Shown in pieces: positions 2,378 to 60,516 of a stretch of 64,000 bases of DNA. The notes under the pieces were generated by a model. That model was given only the letters and a program-made list of their open reading frames with translations. It searched no databases and was not told where the DNA came from. Position 1 is the stretch's first letter. Each line of letters begins with the position of its first letter. This DNA is from Peptococcaceae bacterium (GTDB taxonomy: Bacteria > Bacillota > Desulfitobacteriia > Desulfitobacteriales > Syntrophobotulaceae): assembly GCA_009782825.1 (NCBI GenBank), contig WRII01000008.1, positions 1-64,000 of the forward strand, given 5' to 3'. A program made the translations under genes and the position numbers.

Positions 2378-3215
2378 TGCTTTCCCCTCCCACCATATTG
2401 ATAAAGAAATCCTGCAAGCTCATGCGGTCAACAGCCACGCTCTCCGGAGGCGCTACCCGCTCTCCATAAATATGCGCCGCCACGACGCTGCCCGCTGTGG
2501 TTTTGCCGATGCAGTTCAAGCCTTCTAATATCGGCTCAACAACGTTCGCGGGGCCGGACAGGGTGTACGCCTTTTCGTCGATGTCATCAATGCCCACTTC
2601 CAGCATAATTTTTCCATTATCAATAATGATGAGCTGCTCTGTTACTTTGGCGATTTCGTCAATGAGATGGGTGGAGATGATCAGAACACGCGGATGGGCC
2701 TGGTAACTTTCCATCAGGAGTGTATTGAATTGAGCGCGCATAATTGCGTCGAAGCCAAGTGTTGGTTCGTCAAGCAGAATGACTTTAGAATTATTTGCCA
2801 ATGCGATAATCGTTGTCAGCATTGTCTTCATTCCGAGGGACAACTGCTTATATTTCTTTGTCGGACTTAATTCGAACCGCTTCACCATCTCTTGAGCGAA
2901 ATCCAAATCAAAACTGTCCTGCAATGCGGCAGCCGTATCTATCACCTGCGAGACTTTCATATTAAACTGCTTCGATCCGCTCTCAATATAGGTGACATCA
3001 TCTGGCATACGGCTTGGCAGCACACGTTTTCCCTCCACTGTGATCTGTCCCTCTGTGGCGGAAAGATGTCCTGCCAACAGCTTCATCAACGTCGTTTTTC
3101 CCGCACCGTTTCTGCCCAGCAAACAATAAATCCCACTGTCGGAAACGCTTAGCGAAACACGGTCAATAGCTGTTGTCCTGGCGTATTTTTTTGTGACATT
3201 CGTAACTCTAATCAT
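2370..3215 (-). CDS. ABC transporter ATP-binding protein
   Basis: The 281-residue protein shows a Walker A motif (GRNGAGKT, about residues 34-41), a signature reading LSLGM in place of LSGGQ (about 127), and Walker B with the catalytic Glu (VILLDEPT, about 149). The H-loop His is in STH. It should power the permease encoded next. The C-terminal third beyond the nucleotide-binding domain is the variable regulatory tail common in the YtrB/BcrA class. It overlaps the GntR gene upstream and the permease gene downstream by 8 bp each. Confidence 0.9.
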   Translation of the reverse strand: MIRVTNVTKKYARTTAIDRVSLSVSDSGIYCLLGRNGAGKTTLMKLLAGHLSATEGQITVEGKRVLPSRMPDDVTYIESGSKQFNMKVSQVIDTAAALQDSFDLDFAQEMVKRFELSPTKKYKQLSLGMKTMLTTIIALANNSKVILLDEPTLGFDAIMRAQFNTLLMESYQAHPRVLIISTHLIDEIAKVTEQLIIIDNGKIMLEVGIDDIDEKAYTLSGPANVVEPILEGLNCIGKTTAGSVVAAHIYGERVAPPESVAVDRMSLQDFFINMVGGESNG

Positions 3216-3576
3216 ACCTCTTTGCCCCTTCCCTTTTTTTTATCTCGCCAATAAGTTCGTCTAACGAGATGCCCAATGTTCTCGCTTCCGCGAGCAGGGC
3301 GTCAATTGTCTGGTTCAAAAAAACCGTCCTGCGCCGCTCGGTGATTCTCTCCCGTGCCCCTGCCGCTACACACATTCCAATCCCCCTTTTCTTGTATAAG
3401 ATCCCTGCGTCGGTCAGTTTGCTGACGGCCTTAACCGCTGTCGTCGGATTTACAGCGTATACCTTGGAAATCTGCGTTGTGGAAATAATCAAGTCGTCTG
3501 TCTGATAGACACCTGTGATGATATCGCTCTCAATGATCTCCATAATCTGCAGGAAAACCGGCTGGCTGTCATTCAA
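3208..3576 (-). CDS. GntR-family regulator, YtrA-like
   Basis: The 122-residue protein has an N-terminal winged helix-turn-helix (PVFLQIMEIIESDIITG to GILYKKRGIGMCV) and only a short helical tail, the layout of the YtrA subfamily that represses adjacent ABC operons. The start is TTG at 3576 behind GAGGTG. It is the first gene of the operon, so autoregulation is likely; a GTTAA/TTAAC inverted repeat just downstream of the promoter's -10 box could be its operator (inference). Confidence 0.85.
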   Translation of the reverse strand: MNDSQPVFLQIMEIIESDIITGVYQTDDLIISTTQISKVYAVNPTTAVKAVSKLTDAGILYKKRGIGMCVAAGARERITERRRTVFLNQTIDALLAEARTLGISLDELIGEIKKREGAKRYD

Positions 3577-51718: not shown

Positions 51719-52024
51719 ATGTTAACAGAAGAAAGAGCCAGTATCCTTACGGAAATCCTCAGTGCTGATGAAGCACGCGCACAGACCCTTTTGAGCCTTG
51801 ATACGAAGGAAGCCTTGAAGCAAATCAACGCACTGGGCAACGATTTCACGCTGGACGAACTGAAAGAGTACGGAAAAGCAATGGAAGCCTCTTCCGCGCA
51901 AGGCGAGTTGGATGCTGACTCCCTGGATGATGTGGCAGGCGGCATATTTCGCCCAGTGCCATTCCCCAATCCCTCTTGGAACTACTGGAAACAAAAGCTT
52001 CCCAACATCCGGCCCTGGAAATAA
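51719..52024 (+). CDS. Nif11-type leader RiPP precursor with Pro/Trp-rich core
   Basis: The 101-residue protein starts 9 nt after AGGAGG. Residues 1-75 are a Nif11-like leader: acidic helices, the signature ALGNDFTLDELKEYG, then ELDADSLDDVAGG ending in the Gly-Gly cleavage site at 74-75. The 26-residue core (76-101) has no Cys and no Thr, only one Ser, but five Pro, three Trp, one Tyr and several Lys/Arg (starting IFRPVPFPNP and ending IRPWK), so net positive. It cannot become a classical lanthipeptide. No transporter, protease or LanM lies nearby; the nearest candidate enzyme is the radical-SAM protein 6 kb away. A strong terminator follows. Confidence 0.82.
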   Translation: MLTEERASILTEILSADEARAQTLLSLDTKEALKQINALGNDFTLDELKEYGKAMEASSAQGELDADSLDDVAGGIFRPVPFPNPSWNYWKQKLPNIRPWK

Positions 52025-53621: not shown

Positions 53622-55073
53622 TTAATTTAAAGCTTCTTCAAGCAAACGTCTGATGATGGCGGGATCGCCGTTGCCACGCAGGGTACGCATGGCTTGACCG
53701 AAGAGGAAGTCCTTGGCTTTGAGCTTGCCGCTCTTATAATCGTCCACGGATTTGGGGTTCGCATTAATGATGTCGCGGATGACTTGTGTGAGAAGAGTGT
53801 CATCGGTTTCATTGATCATATTATGCATGTGACTGTAGGCTGTGGGATCGGCGTTTTCCCAGTACATAGCGGCGAAGATTTTTTTGGCGTTGAGACGATT
53901 GACTTGGTTGTCGCCGACCATTTTCAGGAGCTGGGCTAAGCGGGGAGCGTCGATTCGAAGGGTGTCGGCGCCGGAGTCTGAATTTTTTTTCATATGGGCG
54001 AGGAGTTCCCCGTTGATCCAATTGGCGATTTCTTTGGCTTCAGGATAGAGCGCGTGAGTGGCTTCAAAGAGGTCGGCCAGGTCTTTGCCGGCCGCCAGAA
54101 GGGTGCTGTCGTAGTCGGACAGGGCGTACTCTTCCATGTACCGCGCTTTTTTGACGTCCGGCATTTCGGGCAGCGTGCGGCGCACTGTTTCGATCCACTC
54201 TTCACTGATTTCGATGGGAGCGATATCGGGATTGGGGAAGTAGAGATAATCAGTGGCGTTTTCTTTGGTGCGCATGGCGAAACTGCGGTTTTGAAGATCG
54301 TCCCAGCGCCGGGTTTCCTGGACAAGCTCTTCTGTGCCCTGTTCGAGAGCGTCCACATGACGGTGGTATTCATAGTCGATGGCCCGGGCAATGGCTTTGA
54401 GAGAGTTCATGTTTTTGATTTCTGTGCGAACGCCGAATTCAGACGCTCCGGGTTTGCGCACGGATATGTTGATGTCGGCCCGCATGGAGCCTTCTTCCAT
54501 TTTGCAGTCGGAGACGCCGGCATACCGGAGGATAGCCCGCAGTTTCTCCAGATAGGCCAAGGCTTCGTCTGCGGAACGGAAATCAGGGTGGCTGACAATT
54601 TCGATCAGGGGAACGCCGGCTCGGTTATAGTCAATCAGACTTTGGTCGGTGTGCGCGTCATGCAGGAGTTTGCCTGCGTCTTCTTCGATATGGATTTGCT
54701 TGATCCCGATGGTTTTGGCGCCGGTTTTGGCGCCGGCGGCGCCGGCGGTTGTGATGTCTACATGGCCTTCGGTACAGATTGGGGCGTAAAATTGTGTGAT
54801 CTGATAGGATGTGGGCAAATCGGGATAGTAATAGTTTTTTTTGTCGAAGGTGTTGCGGGGGGTGATGCGGCAGTTGGTGACAAGTCCGGCGGCAATGGCC
54901 AGCTCGACGGCTCTTTTGTTGAGGACGGGCAAAAGTCCGGGCATACCGCTGCAAGCGGGACAGACGTTTTCATTGGGTTCGGCTCCGAACGCGGCGGAGC
55001 AGGTGCAGAAGAGTTTGGATTGGGTGGCCATTTCTACATGGACTTCAAGACCCATGACCAGTTCATAGCGCAC
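53622..55073 (-). CDS. gatB: Aspartyl/glutamyl-tRNA amidotransferase subunit B
   Basis: The 483-residue protein is a regular GatB: the kinase-like cradle (YELVMGLEVHVEMATQSKLF, CTCSAAFGAEPNENVCPACS, GMPGLLPVLN, NTFDKKNYYYPDLPTSYQIT) and the YqeY tail. GatB phosphorylates the misacylated tRNA glutamyl or aspartyl group in the GatCAB complex. There is a short Ala/Gly insert (AAGAKTGAKTIG). Its coding strand is C-rich, opposite to the surrounding minus-strand genes. Confidence 0.95.
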   Translation of the reverse strand: MRYELVMGLEVHVEMATQSKLFCTCSAAFGAEPNENVCPACSGMPGLLPVLNKRAVELAIAAGLVTNCRITPRNTFDKKNYYYPDLPTSYQITQFYAPICTEGHVDITTAGAAGAKTGAKTIGIKQIHIEEDAGKLLHDAHTDQSLIDYNRAGVPLIEIVSHPDFRSADEALAYLEKLRAILRYAGVSDCKMEEGSMRADINISVRKPGASEFGVRTEIKNMNSLKAIARAIDYEYHRHVDALEQGTEELVQETRRWDDLQNRSFAMRTKENATDYLYFPNPDIAPIEISEEWIETVRRTLPEMPDVKKARYMEEYALSDYDSTLLAAGKDLADLFEATHALYPEAKEIANWINGELLAHMKKNSDSGADTLRIDAPRLAQLLKMVGDNQVNRLNAKKIFAAMYWENADPTAYSHMHNMINETDDTLLTQVIRDIINANPKSVDDYKSGKLKAKDFLFGQAMRTLRGNGDPAIIRRLLEEALN

Positions 55074-55129: not shown

Positions 55130-56593
55130 TTATAGATGCGGCGCGGGGTTTGCGGATAACACGGATAGGACGTCATATAGTTTTTGTTCCCCATGAATTC
55201 CGGCGATAAGTTGAATTCCGGGTGTGTTGGCGCCGTGTTGCGGATGAACGGGGGCCGGGGCTGCTGCGGCTGGGAACCCGGCGAGGGTGGCCGGCGCGGT
55301 ATAACGCATGTCTTCAAAGCTGAGGCGGGTGTTGGCGTTTGGTCGGTCTGGATGGTAGGGTTTATGAGAAGAAGCTGGGAGCAGCAGGCAGTCAAAGCTT
55401 TGCAGAAGGTGAGTGAGCTGATCCTGGATCAGGCGGCGTATTTTGAGGGCTTGAAGATAGTATTTTTCGTAGTTCTGTTGGGCAAGAACGTAAGAACCGA
55501 GAAGAATGGTTTTTTTGACTTCCAGGCCAAATCCTTCGCTGCGGGAGCCGACATAAATGTCTTCAAGGGATGTGATGGTCTGGGGCCTGTGACCGAATTT
55601 GACACCGTCAAAACGGGAAAAATTAGTGCATCCTTCGGCGGCGGCAATAATGCGCAGAACCAGATGGGCCAGGTCGAGTTGGGGCAAATCGCATTCGCAG
55701 ATATCTGCGCCCAGTTCACACAGACGGTTTATGGTTGTGTTCAGAGTATCGAATCTCTCGGTGCTGGAAGACCTGCTGCCGGCGGACATGCCGTTTAGGG
55801 TGTCCCAATAGGGAAGCACCCCGACACGCATGCCGCGCAAGTCTTGCCGGGGTATTAAGGTGAGGGGGGTGTGATCGGGAAGGCTGGTACCGTCTTTGGA
55901 ATCGTGTCCCGCGATAATGTTGAACAGGGCCGCAGCGTCATTAAGAGTGGCGGCGGCCGGTCCGATTTGTTCGGCGGAGGAAACATAGGCTACGATGCCA
56001 AAGCGGGAAACGCTTCCATAGGTGGGTTTGAGAAAGACTGTGCCGGATAGGGAGGCAAATTTGCGCGGGGTTCCGATGCTGTCACAGCACAGGGCAAGGG
56101 GGACAAGCCGGGAAGCGATGGCGGCGGCGGCCCCGCCGGAGAGTGTTTCGGGGTGGCGGGGATTGAGGGTGGGACCTTGATAGCAGGTACTGCCGCTGCC
56201 GCTGACTCCGAGTTCGTCGGTATTGGTGCGGCCGACGGGGACGAGTCCGGCGGAAAGGATTTTGTCCACAACCGTGGCGCTGAAGGGCGAAACGAAGGTG
56301 TCAAGCATGCGGGATCCTGCTGTGCAGCGTTCTTGGCGCATTAAAATTGTGTCGTCGATAGCTATGGGGACACCCGCCAGGAGCGAGGGGCATATGCCGC
56401 TCTCAAGCTGGGTATCGACGGCTGCCGCGGCTGCCAAAGCGGACTCGGGCGAGGGGCTCATGAAACAGTTGCAGGGGTCTGAGGCGATCTGCTCCAGAGT
56501 ATGTTTGGCAACATCAAGGGCGGTAAGTTCGCGGAGACGGATTTTTTCCGCCAATTCAAGGGCTGTGAGAGTGTTGAGGATATTCATTGACAT
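55130..56593 (-). CDS. gatA: GatA-like amidase subunit lacking the catalytic triad
   Basis: The 487-residue protein aligns with GatA over its length (GRTNTDELGVSGSG, FLKPTYGSVSRFGIVAYVSS, DQIGP-like EQIGPAAAT), but the amidase triad is gone. The Lys of PIAIKDN is Asp80 (GVPIAIDDT), the GGSSGGSAAAV loop with the cis-Ser is reduced to LSGGAAAAIA (151-160), and the nucleophile Ser of TGGSIRQPAS is Thr175 (SIGTPRKFAS). Glutamine hydrolysis, the ammonia source of GatCAB, should therefore fail. It sits in a normal gatC-gatA-gatB order. Another gatA must exist if tRNA amidation is needed; or this copy serves another role. Confidence 0.88.
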   Translation of the reverse strand: MSMNILNTLTALELAEKIRLRELTALDVAKHTLEQIASDPCNCFMSPSPESALAAAAAVDTQLESGICPSLLAGVPIAIDDTILMRQERCTAGSRMLDTFVSPFSATVVDKILSAGLVPVGRTNTDELGVSGSGSTCYQGPTLNPRHPETLSGGAAAAIASRLVPLALCCDSIGTPRKFASLSGTVFLKPTYGSVSRFGIVAYVSSAEQIGPAAATLNDAAALFNIIAGHDSKDGTSLPDHTPLTLIPRQDLRGMRVGVLPYWDTLNGMSAGSRSSSTERFDTLNTTINRLCELGADICECDLPQLDLAHLVLRIIAAAEGCTNFSRFDGVKFGHRPQTITSLEDIYVGSRSEGFGLEVKKTILLGSYVLAQQNYEKYYLQALKIRRLIQDQLTHLLQSFDCLLLPASSHKPYHPDRPNANTRLSFEDMRYTAPATLAGFPAAAAPAPVHPQHGANTPGIQLIAGIHGEQKLYDVLSVLSANPAPHL

Positions 56594-56628: not shown

Positions 56629-56910
56629 CTAATCTAAGACTTTGGGCGCGACAAAACAGCCTTGGATATGTTCTGACGCGTTGGCCAGAATGTCTTGGCG
56701 GGGCGCCATGCGGACGACGGCGTCTTCTCGCATGATATTGCTTAATGGAACCGTTTGAATCAAGGGATCCGTCTGGGTGGTATCGACATTCTCCAGAACC
56801 TCAAGGGCATCAAACAGCTGGGAAAAATCGTCAAGAATGTCTTGTCGTTCTTCAGGGCTGAAGCGCAGTTTATTGAAAGAAGCCAGGGAGTCAAGGGTTT
56901 GCTCGTTCAT
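56629..56910 (-). CDS. gatC: Aspartyl/glutamyl-tRNA amidotransferase subunit C
   Basis: The 93-residue GatC protein (ASFNKLRFSPEERQDILDDF, then VDTTQTDPLIQTVPLSNIMR, REDAV) wraps around GatA and GatB and stabilises the complex. First gene of the gatCAB operon; the usual end (PxVxx) is present. Confidence 0.9.
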   Translation of the reverse strand: MNEQTLDSLASFNKLRFSPEERQDILDDFSQLFDALEVLENVDTTQTDPLIQTVPLSNIMREDAVVRMAPRQDILANASEHIQGCFVAPKVLD

Positions 56911-57031: not shown

Positions 57032-58537
57032 TCATCCTGTTAAATTAATAGTTTTCACAGCGATCGTGTCGCAAAACACCTGGTCATGCTCTACAAAAAT
57101 CATGGTCGGACGATGACCCATAATCAGTTCCTCAATCTGCATCCGGGACAGCACATCGATATAGTTCAGCGGTTCGTCCCAGATATACACATGCGCCTGC
57201 TCACAAAGGCTGCGGGCCAGCAGAACCTTTTTCTTTTGCCCGGCGCTGTAATCCCGCATATCTTTCTCAAACTGTACCCGGGGAAAATCCAATTTACGCA
57301 GGATGGTCTTAAACAGGGTCAAATCAATCCGCTGCGCGGTGGCATATCCGTCTAAATCTCCCGCAAGAAACGACGCGTCTTGCTGCACATAGGAAATGAT
57401 CAGCCTGCTGCCGACGTTAATATGGCCGGTGTGTGGGATATCTTCTCCGCAGATCAGCTTGAGGATACTGCTTTTGCCCGACCCGTTCCCCCCCAATAAC
57501 GCCAGCCGGTCGCCCTGTTCCAGCGTAAAATTCAGGCTGCGAAAAACCTCTTTTTCCCCATAGGAGATTGTCAGGTTTTCCGCCGACAACAGGCGGGACG
57601 CGTGATAGCCCAGCGCGTGGATTTTCAAGGGCTCGGCGGTCTCGATGTTTTTAAGCAAGGTGGACTTTTGCTCTAGTGCCGATTGCTGTCTGCGCTCAAG
57701 ATTTTTCCTGCGTTGTTGCATACGTCTGGACTTCTCGGCGTAGTAGGCCATCGTATCAATATTGGCGTGTCCTCTTTTCCGTGTAGCGGCGGCGCCTTTC
57801 CCCATCTTTGCTGATTCAACCTTGTCGGCCCACTGAGAGCTTTGCCGCGCTGCTGCTTCCAAACGTTTAATATCTTTTTTTAATTTTTCGTTCTCCGCAA
57901 GCTCAAAATCGTCCCGCATGTGCTTATTGCGGAACCAGCTGGAGAAATTCCCGTTTTGTATCTCAAGAGTCGCCTTGTTGATTGACAAGATATGATCCAC
58001 GCAGCCGTCCAGAAACGCCCGGTCATGCGAAACCAGGATAAACCCGGTTTTTCCGTTCAAATACCGCGCTGCGGTCTCGCGGGCGGCTCTATCTAAATGG
58101 TTGGTTGGCTCGTCGATCAATAAAAAGCTGTTTTCCCGCAGAAACAACCCGGCCAGCAGGGCTTTGGTTTGTTCGCCGTTGGAAAGGGTAGAGAATGGGC
58201 GATAGAGAGCGTCTTCGCTGACCGCCAGTTTTGAGAGCTCCTTCTGGATTTGCCACACCTGGACCTCCGGCGCGAGGGAAGATAAAATATCCAGCGTGTT
58301 TTGCGACGGATCGGAGACGGCAAACGGAAAATACTCGAAGTCCACGCTCGCGGAAATGCTTCCTCTGTATTCATAACTCCCCATAAGCAGCTTCATAAAG
58401 GTGGTTTTTCCTCGTCCGTTGCGCCCACAGAATCCCAATTTCCAGTCTGTGTCGATTTGGAAGGAAACATCGGTAAAAACGTTGTCATAGCTGCCATCAT
58501 AGGCGAAGGTGAGGTTTGATATATTGATAAGCGACAT
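57032..58537 (-). CDS. ABC-F ribosome protection protein, Lsa/CplR-like
   Basis: The 501 residues hold two ATPase domains without membrane segments: GRNGRGKT (about 38) with LSNGEQ and LLIDEPTNHLD; and GGNGSGKS (about 350) with YSAGQKK and YIWDEPLNYIDV, separated by a charged interdomain linker (about 205-300). The opening MSLINISNLTFAYDGSYDNV is typical of the Lsa group, which moves lincosamides, streptogramin A and pleuromutilins off the ribosome. The gene has a long leader with a terminator-like hairpin, suggesting antibiotic-induced attenuation. Resistance is inferred from family only. Confidence 0.88.
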   Translation of the reverse strand: MSLINISNLTFAYDGSYDNVFTDVSFQIDTDWKLGFCGRNGRGKTTFMKLLMGSYEYRGSISASVDFEYFPFAVSDPSQNTLDILSSLAPEVQVWQIQKELSKLAVSEDALYRPFSTLSNGEQTKALLAGLFLRENSFLLIDEPTNHLDRAARETAARYLNGKTGFILVSHDRAFLDGCVDHILSINKATLEIQNGNFSSWFRNKHMRDDFELAENEKLKKDIKRLEAAARQSSQWADKVESAKMGKGAAATRKRGHANIDTMAYYAEKSRRMQQRRKNLERRQQSALEQKSTLLKNIETAEPLKIHALGYHASRLLSAENLTISYGEKEVFRSLNFTLEQGDRLALLGGNGSGKSSILKLICGEDIPHTGHINVGSRLIISYVQQDASFLAGDLDGYATAQRIDLTLFKTILRKLDFPRVQFEKDMRDYSAGQKKKVLLARSLCEQAHVYIWDEPLNYIDVLSRMQIEELIMGHRPTMIFVEHDQVFCDTIAVKTINLTG

Positions 58538-58760: not shown

Positions 58761-59402
58761 TTATTTTTTTAAAAAAATACCTTTTCGAAGAGCACCCTCC
58801 ACAATCTCCGCTGTTACATCTTCAACACTCTGTTCCCCATCCACCTCCATAATAGGATCCCCTGCGTCTTTGGCCTCAGAAGCCAGAGTCATAAAATTCG
58901 CATACACCCGCTCCAGCATAGTCTCTTGTTCAAAAAGCTCAGCACGCAAGCGTCCCGCCTCAATCCGTTTCATACTCACAGCCGGCCTCACTTTAATCAG
59001 AACTGTCAAATCCGGAACAATACTGAACTTATTGATCTGCCGCAGCCACGCCTCATCAAGATCCAACCCCTGATACGCCAAGGTTGACCACAGATAGCGG
59101 TCACAGATCACAATCCCGCCGGCTTCCAGAACCGGCCTCACTTCCTGAGCCAAGTGATCCTGCCGATCCGCCGCAAACAGCAGCGCCAAAGTCGTCGGAT
59201 CCACACCGTGAAGGCGCTTCGCCAGAACTTGACGAATCAACGACCCCACCGGACCTGTGCCGGGCTGCTTAGTTGTCATGATTTTACGATATGGCGTGAC
59301 GCATTTTGCCGAAAGAACCTGGCTCACACGCGCTATTTGCGTGCTAATCCCCGACCCGTCAATCCCTTCCAACACCATAAAATATCCTGGGTAGTTTTTC
59401 AA
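58761..59402 (-). CDS. tmk: Thymidylate kinase with altered P-loop
   Basis: The 213-residue protein reads FMVLEGIDGSGISTQIARVS: the P-loop Lys of GSGKSTQ is Ile19 (codon ATT at 59346-59348). Other dTMP kinase parts are there: ADRQDHLAQEVRPVLEAGG, ICDRYLWSTLAYQG (DRY motif) and a LID. The P-loop Lys normally holds ATP phosphates, so activity may be reduced or rely on another residue. The likely TTG start overlaps the stop of an 8-codon frame (59399-59425). It would convert dTMP to dTDP. Confidence 0.85.
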   Translation of the reverse strand: MKNYPGYFMVLEGIDGSGISTQIARVSQVLSAKCVTPYRKIMTTKQPGTGPVGSLIRQVLAKRLHGVDPTTLALLFAADRQDHLAQEVRPVLEAGGIVICDRYLWSTLAYQGLDLDEAWLRQINKFSIVPDLTVLIKVRPAVSMKRIEAGRLRAELFEQETMLERVYANFMTLASEAKDAGDPIMEVDGEQSVEDVTAEIVEGALRKGIFLKK

Positions 59403-59703: not shown

Positions 59704-60516
59704 ATGGAAAGATTGTTAGGAAACAGATATAAAATTGAAGGCAAGCTGGGCGCGGGAGGCATGGCTATTGTTTATAAAGCTCAGGATACGCAGCTGGAAA
59801 GAACCGTCGCTGTCAAAGTCCTCAGGAAGCAATTTGTCAACGACGAAGAGTTTGTAGAAAATTTCCGCCAGGAAGCGCAATCCGTTGCACGCTTGTCTCA
59901 CCCCAATATTGTGTCATTTTATGATGTGGGACATGACGGTGATGTCAATTATATTATCATGGAATATATTGAAGGCAAGACACTAAAACAAGTTGTGCGC
60001 GAGAACGGATCCTTTCCGCTCCCGGAAGCGATCAACATTATTGACCAGGTGGCAGAAGCCCTGAATCACGCCCACGCCAAAGACATTGTACACCGTGACA
60101 TCAAACCGCAAAATATTATGGTGACTCCAAACAACCAGGCGAAAGTGACAGATTTTGGCCTGGCCGGCGCTGCGATGTCAGCAGCGCCGGCTCGCATAGG
60201 AGAAGTTGTCGGGTCTGTCTACTATTTATCGCCGGAACAGGCTCGGGGAGATCTTGTGACAGAACAATCAGATATTTATTCATTGGGCATCATTCTGTAT
60301 GAACTGATGACAGGACAGCTCCCCTATGTCGGAGATTCACCCGTCAGCATTATCCGCAAACATCTGCGGGAAACGCCGCCTCTTCCAGGACAATTGGGCA
60401 AAAATAGCGCATTGGACATTGTGATTGCCCGAGCAATGGCCAAGTCCGCAAAGGATCGTTACCGGGACGTGAAAGAATTGCAAACCCACCTGGCCTTAGT
60501 ACACCCTCAAGCCTAA
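59704..60516 (+). CDS. Soluble PrkC-like Ser/Thr protein kinase
   Basis: The 270 residues are a complete Hanks kinase domain: GKLGAGGMAIVYKA (P-loop), VAVKVL, IVHRDIKPQNIMVT (catalytic loop), VTDFGLAG (DFG), SVYYLSPEQARG and DIYSLGIILYELM. Unlike PrkC it stops right after the kinase domain, with no membrane helix or PASTA domains. Its TAA stop is also the first bases of repeat copy D, so the element may have cut off a longer gene. No partner phosphatase lies beside it. Confidence 0.92.
   Translation: MERLLGNRYKIEGKLGAGGMAIVYKAQDTQLERTVAVKVLRKQFVNDEEFVENFRQEAQSVARLSHPNIVSFYDVGHDGDVNYIIMEYIEGKTLKQVVRENGSFPLPEAINIIDQVAEALNHAHAKDIVHRDIKPQNIMVTPNNQAKVTDFGLAGAAMSAAPARIGEVVGSVYYLSPEQARGDLVTEQSDIYSLGIILYELMTGQLPYVGDSPVSIIRKHLRETPPLPGQLGKNSALDIVIARAMAKSAKDRYRDVKELQTHLALVHPQA

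Follow-up and report, generated by a model that had tools for sequence, protein, structure and literature searches.

The window analyzed here, a stretch of 64,000 nucleotides of DNA, carries the genes of a GatCAB amidotransferase in the order gatC-gatA-gatB (Table 1). It belongs to a genome (G000) of 2.99 Mb in 119 contigs that is 95% complete, and it was compared with the draft genomes of two further species of the same uncultured genus of anaerobes, g1 (G001 and G002); the three genomes are 91-95% complete. The GatA protein scored 256 bits against the Pfam family PF01425 and 335.8 bits against TIGR00132 (gatA), which is below the curated equivalog cut-off of 481.1 bits, yet TIGR00132 was still its best family match. 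GatB keeps its active-site, zinc and Mg motifs (GLEVH, the Cys4 zinc motif, HIEEDAGK and DYNRAGVPLIEI). GatC is divergent, with 22-30% identity to its relatives. A first-pass annotation of the window had described GatB and GatC as well kept, which holds for GatB but not for GatC.

Table 1. The gatCAB genes and the altered GatA positions, in window coordinates
Feature	Positions	Strand	Description	Basis
gatC	56629..56910	-		TIGR00135, 61.4 bits (cut-off 47.1)
gatA	55130..56593	-	GatCAB amidase-signature subunit, predicted glutaminase-dead, 487 aa	PF01425 and TIGR00132 matches
Asp80	56354..56356	-	Catalytic Lys replaced (KDN to DDT)	Alignments; Asp invariant in G000, G001 and G002
Residues 145-155	56129..56161	-	Shortened cis-Ser loop	4-residue gap against 27 intact GatA
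Thr175	56069..56071	-	Nucleophile Ser replaced	Alignments; Ala in G001 and G002
Lys361-Thr362	55508..55513	-	Arg-Arg in intact GatA (glutamine-carboxylate contact)	Alignment
Met429	55307..55309	-	Asp in intact GatA (glutamine-amide contact; yeast D418)	Alignment
gatB	53622..55073	-	Transamidase and kinase subunit, motifs intact	TIGR00133, 540.8 bits (cut-off 314.8)

Other genes were also noted. Directly upstream of gatCAB lies a gene for an Lsa-like ABC-F ribosomal protection protein (57032-58537, strand -; 697 bits, with an Lsa cut-off of 750). The P-loop Lys of a thymidylate kinase (58761-59402, strand -; TIGR00041, 143 bits) is replaced, giving EGIDGSGISTQ, and a homologue in G001 (L253:18281-18868) that is 72% identical has the same change. 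A PknB/Stk-type Ser/Thr kinase domain of 270 aa stands alone at 59704-60516 (strand +), lacking the PASTA region that the family model includes. Small proteins encoded at 51719-52024 (strand +) of the window and at L203:2370-2684 share a common leader, ALKQINALGNDFTLDEL...LDDVAGG, carry variable tails and resemble modified-peptide precursors; one more candidate of this kind lies on L203 at 2797-3252.

Active-site and glutamine-binding positions of GatA

The first-pass annotation had claimed that GatA has lost all three catalytic residues, with Asp80 in place of the Lys of KDN, the GGSSGGS loop shortened to SGGAAAA and the nucleophile Ser changed to Thr175. Alignment with 27 intact GatA proteins from the same order confirmed each of these changes: the substitution of Lys by Asp is clear, a gap of four residues precedes SGG(AAAA), and the interval that had been given for the losses, 56069-56356, runs exactly from the Thr175 codon to the Asp80 codon. 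When solved GatA structures (S. aureus 2df4 and others) were aligned, the gap and the substitutions fell at the same places. Anchoring the loop on its right side puts Leu151 at the cis-Ser position in G000; G001 has Thr there and G002 has Leu. No member of the Lys-cisSer-Ser triad is present, and the alignments to the 27 intact proteins revealed no intact Lys/Ser/Ser elsewhere in the window GatA, so the losses stand.

The residues that bind glutamine are lost as well. We took the roles of the binding Arg and Asp from published work on GatA, in which the glutamine-contact Arg corresponds to yeast R334 of the GatFAB structure (PMC4027206). In the three species of the genus, the R361/R362 columns read K/T and the D429 column reads M/M/T. 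Comparison of residues therefore strongly supports the prediction that the window GatA cannot hydrolyze glutamine by the known mechanism, and the lost triad together with the lost glutamine-binding residues lends strong support to the earlier proposal that this GatCAB would make no ammonia from glutamine. The same annotation had considered the rest of GatA well kept; this is true in part, as identity to relatives is 33-38% and, of 207 near-invariant columns, the three species all differ at 86. Among open-licence papers, we found no account of an inactive GatA.

Conservation within the genus and dead copies in the order

G000 contains one GatA and one GatB, as do G001 and G002, and a search for a second intact GatCAB in G000 (95% complete) found none; the suggestion that this GatA is a paralogue is thus unsupported for G000, descent from a paralogous operon being a separate reading considered below. 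When 73 genomes of the order were scanned, the GatA proteins of the three species scored 912-947 bits and the next best protein 336 bits. The orthologues in G001 and G002 are about 63-68% identical to that of G000 and share the Lys to Asp change and the gap of four residues, with Ala in place of Ser. Residues 72-98, around Asp80, are nearly invariant across the three species. In every other main-copy GatA inspected within the order, the triad was intact.

Selection was estimated by the Nei-Gojobori method, in which near saturation of synonymous sites among the three species makes the dN/dS values rough. For gatA, dN/dS was 0.18-0.22, indicating purifying selection, and for gatB and aspS from the same species it was 0.10-0.12 and 0.12-0.13; intact gatA genes of genus g3 mostly gave 0.04-0.08. 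GatB is under stronger selection than GatA, at a level typical of a housekeeping synthetase. Neither a frameshift nor a stop was found in gatA in the three species. Because the losses are shared, the frames are intact and dN/dS is about 0.2, GatA of the genus is best described as a predicted pseudo-glutaminase, a conserved pseudoenzyme with partly relaxed constraint, and the decay that had been proposed for it is not supported.

Other members of the order carry dead GatA copies of a second kind. Seven genomes, each with a second GatA match, contain a second gatCAB (loci L161-L167) in which the nucleophile Ser of GatA is Asp (Gly in G010) and the Lys is mostly Gln, Asn or Ser. Three of these genomes (G031, G032 and G034) belong to genus g16, and four (G008, G010, G016 and G020) to the family of the window. 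The main GatA copy was read in four of the seven, G008, G010, G031 and G034, and is intact in each of them. These second copies form one clade of seven members (support 100/100). They resemble the GatA of our three species in having lost the nucleophile and mostly the Lys beside a conserved GatB, but differ in that the second copy stands next to an intact GatA, the glutamine-site Arg is mostly kept and the nucleophile is usually Asp.

It is conceivable, though in our judgment doubtful, that the operon of the three species descends from this paralogous second gatCAB and that the ordinary copy was lost, an origin that would be compatible with the explanation favored below. The existence of the dead-GatA clade argues for it, as does the GatB tree, which places the three species on the paralogue side (97/99). 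The GatA tree, on the other hand, puts them with the main copies of the family (95/99), and the grouping with the paralogues in GatA is neither favored nor rejected (AU p 0.38). Fixed differences are split, with 7 first-like and 4 second-like in GatA and 15 and 13 in GatB, and the branch leading to the three species is very long.

Asparagine supply and other glutamine amidotransferases

AsnRS and GlnRS were found in all three species, as the first-pass annotation had asked of GlnRS, and AsnA, its other candidate, was found in none of the 22 genomes searched. AsnB was not found in G001 and G002, which are drafts in the 91-95% range of completeness. The AsnB-type protein of G000 (L071:1790-3808) lies above the TIGR01536 cut-off, begins with MSG rather than MCG and has a degenerate glutaminase domain; it bears a resemblance to lasso-peptide cyclases too, scoring 275.6 bits, which is under the cut-off. 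The single AspRS is of the bacterial type and has the His of RRxH and the Gly of RPEGTEN, which we take to be residues of non-discriminating enzymes; these two residues suggest that it may be non-discriminating, and a literature search turned up no paper confirming their role. The first pair of tRNA-Asn is U1-A72 in all three species; tRNA-Gln has the same pair in G000 but A1-U72 in the other two species. U1-A72 is the identity pair required by bacterial GatCAB, and the gene set of AsnRS, GlnRS and GatCAB has been tied to tRNA-dependent asparagine synthesis (PMC4206432). The U1-A72 pair of tRNA-Asn is common and may be inertly inherited.

A search with PF00117 found two class-I glutaminase domains per genome, of a TrpG/PabA-type protein and PyrG in G000 and of CarA and PyrG in G001 and G002. 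In all three species, GMP synthetase (GuaA) consists of the ATPPase domain alone (321-333 aa, matching profile positions 193/195-512 of 512 in the two proteins scanned), while it is full-length in the controls G012 and G026; the PF00117 search of these 91-95% complete drafts found no separate GATase partner for it. CarA of G001 and G002 has GVGLGHQ in place of the Cys motif (Cys to Gly), Val in place of His and Asp or Thr in place of Glu. In G000, CarB is encoded at L203:12632-15943, directly after purF, and the PF00117 search of this 95% complete draft found no CarA. PyrG, the CTP synthase, keeps its Cys in G001 and G002 but has Phe in place of His.

In G000, about 1.38 Mb (46% of the genome) was read directly for glutamine amidotransferase motifs, and in G001, 0.4 Mb. 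This yielded PurF, PurL and CarB in G000 and no glutamine amidotransferase in G001; GlmS, GltB and NadE were not located in these portions. PurF of G000 (L203:11179-12624) keeps its Cys, and the Arg of GHxRY (GHVRY), a position expected to contact glutamine, is Ser (GHTSYSTAG). Overall, the predicted loss of glutaminase function affects GatA and GuaA in all three species, CarA in two (it was not found in the third) and PyrG in two, and is not universal. A CarA, AsnB or GATase partner missing from one genome could be a draft gap. We put at even odds the broader proposal that free ammonia has taken the place of glutamine in much of the amide-nitrogen metabolism of the genus, through varied lesions in GatCAB, GMP synthetase, carbamoyl-phosphate synthetase and, in two species, CTP synthase, with the synthetase parts kept and the dead GatA, CarA and PyrG parts serving as scaffolds. 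In G000 such a switch would be partial, because the glutaminase motifs of TrpG, CTP synthase and PurL are intact there.

Source of the amide nitrogen and comparison with known systems

The explanation that we favor, with somewhat better than even confidence, is that the sole GatCAB of the genus works on free ammonia around a glutaminase-dead GatA scaffold, most likely with Asp-tRNA(Asn) as substrate and as part of the genus-wide change of donor. It builds on the observed losses of residues and domains, the sole copy, purifying selection, the GatB motifs, the presence of AsnRS and GlnRS and the lack of AsnA. GatA would be kept as a structural partner and ammonia conduit for GatB, which would activate Asp-tRNA(Asn) by ATP-dependent phosphorylation; free ammonia, reaching GatB directly or by way of the opened GatA pocket, would then amidate the activated Asp-tRNA(Asn). 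The use of ammonia, its route of entry and the tRNA that serves as substrate are the parts that we infer. Since AsnRS and GlnRS charge their tRNAs directly and no intact asparagine synthetase was found, the main service of GatCAB would be tRNA-dependent asparagine synthesis. The switch from glutamine to ammonia would extend to GMP synthetase, carbamoyl-phosphate synthetase and, in two species, CTP synthase, and the dead glutaminase parts of GatA, CarA and PyrG would be retained for assembly or for the ammonia path. Among the options that the first-pass annotation had offered, the use of free ammonia is the best supported, and the parallel losses in GuaA, CarA and PyrG lend it independent support, as judged from the protein sequences. 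In vitro, ammonia can substitute for glutamine in a tRNA amidotransferase (PMC4027206), and GMP synthetase can use external ammonia (PMC10526850). Our guess is that these anaerobes live at high ammonium.

AsnRS and GlnRS also make GatCAB dispensable for charging, so that it could have another role. GatCAB may have been repurposed, with GatA as a structural or regulatory pseudoenzyme and GatB-GatC binding misacylated tRNA without amidating it (sequestration, a proofreading aid or a transamidosome scaffold). Apart from direct charging, the conserved new Asp80-Asp81 segment, which suggests a maintained new surface, is consistent with this reading, and the dead paralogues beside intact copies in relatives imply that a glutaminase-free GatA can persist. 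We nevertheless consider repurposing unlikely: GatB keeps Mg, zinc and substrate motifs for which a pure scaffold would have no use, and the parallel lesions in CarA, GuaA and PyrG suggest that it is the nitrogen donor, rather than tRNA biology, that changed.

Supply of ammonia in trans, by another glutaminase or an asparaginase that docks on GatA so that the donor is still glutamine or asparagine, would account for the retention of GatB and GatC and has a parallel in separate glutaminase subunits known elsewhere, such as the archaeal two-subunit GMP synthetase (PMC10526850). It appears quite improbable, as PF00117 finds only CarA and PyrG or TrpG and PyrG, and neither CarA nor PyrG has an unbroken glutaminase in G001 or G002. 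An ammonia-supplying operon partner was rejected because the neighbors of gatCAB are not conserved, those in G000 being unlike those in G001 and G002. Finally, GatCAB might be redundant after the acquisition of direct charging by AsnRS and GlnRS and be heading for loss under relaxed selection, in line with gatA having about twice the dN/dS of gatB and about three times the value for the intact gatA genes of genus g3. We give this reading very little credence, given that three species retain open frames despite near-saturated synonymous divergence, that dN/dS is well below 1 and that GatB is constrained like AspRS.

Channelling of glutamine-derived ammonia is regarded as a hallmark of amidotransferases. 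If the free-ammonia explanation is true, the lineage would be a natural test of the reasons for keeping it, in which several unrelated glutaminase parts were lost and the synthetases retained, and it bears on the need for dead glutaminase subunits as scaffolds and on how ammonia supply shapes enzyme evolution. The three species would also offer a native glutaminase-free GatCAB for mechanistic work. Caution is needed with NCBIfam family models, which label these proteins glutamine-hydrolyzing. The system resembles the ordinary GatCAB amidotransferase in its operon, in GatB and GatC proteins that score above the NCBIfam cut-offs and in a GatA that matches the amidase family profile, but its GatA is below the gatA equivalog cut-off and lacks the Lys, the cis-Ser, the nucleophile Ser and the glutamine-binding residues.

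Mitochondrial carbamoyl-phosphate synthetase I, a single chain under N-acetylglutamate control, likewise keeps a folded but dead glutaminase domain while its synthetase uses free ammonia, and CarA of G001 matches the human protein (5dou). It is a different enzyme, and the use of ammonia in our three species is predicted from sequence. The single-domain, ammonia-dependent NAD synthetase offers a precedent for free ammonia as a physiological donor in bacteria (PMC3376133); this form has been argued to be ancestral, whereas in the genus studied here the glutaminase parts were lost. A parallel in gene content is tRNA-dependent asparagine synthesis of the Bdellovibrio bacteriovorus or Deinococcus type (PMC4206432), which likewise combines AsnRS, GlnRS and GatCAB with a single AspRS of the bacterial type and a tRNA-Asn with U1-A72; it does so in the absence of AsnA and AsnB, and in our drafts neither AsnA nor an intact AsnB was found. 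The GatCAB of that system is assumed to depend on glutamine in the usual way, whereas the GatA of our three species is predicted to be glutaminase-dead.
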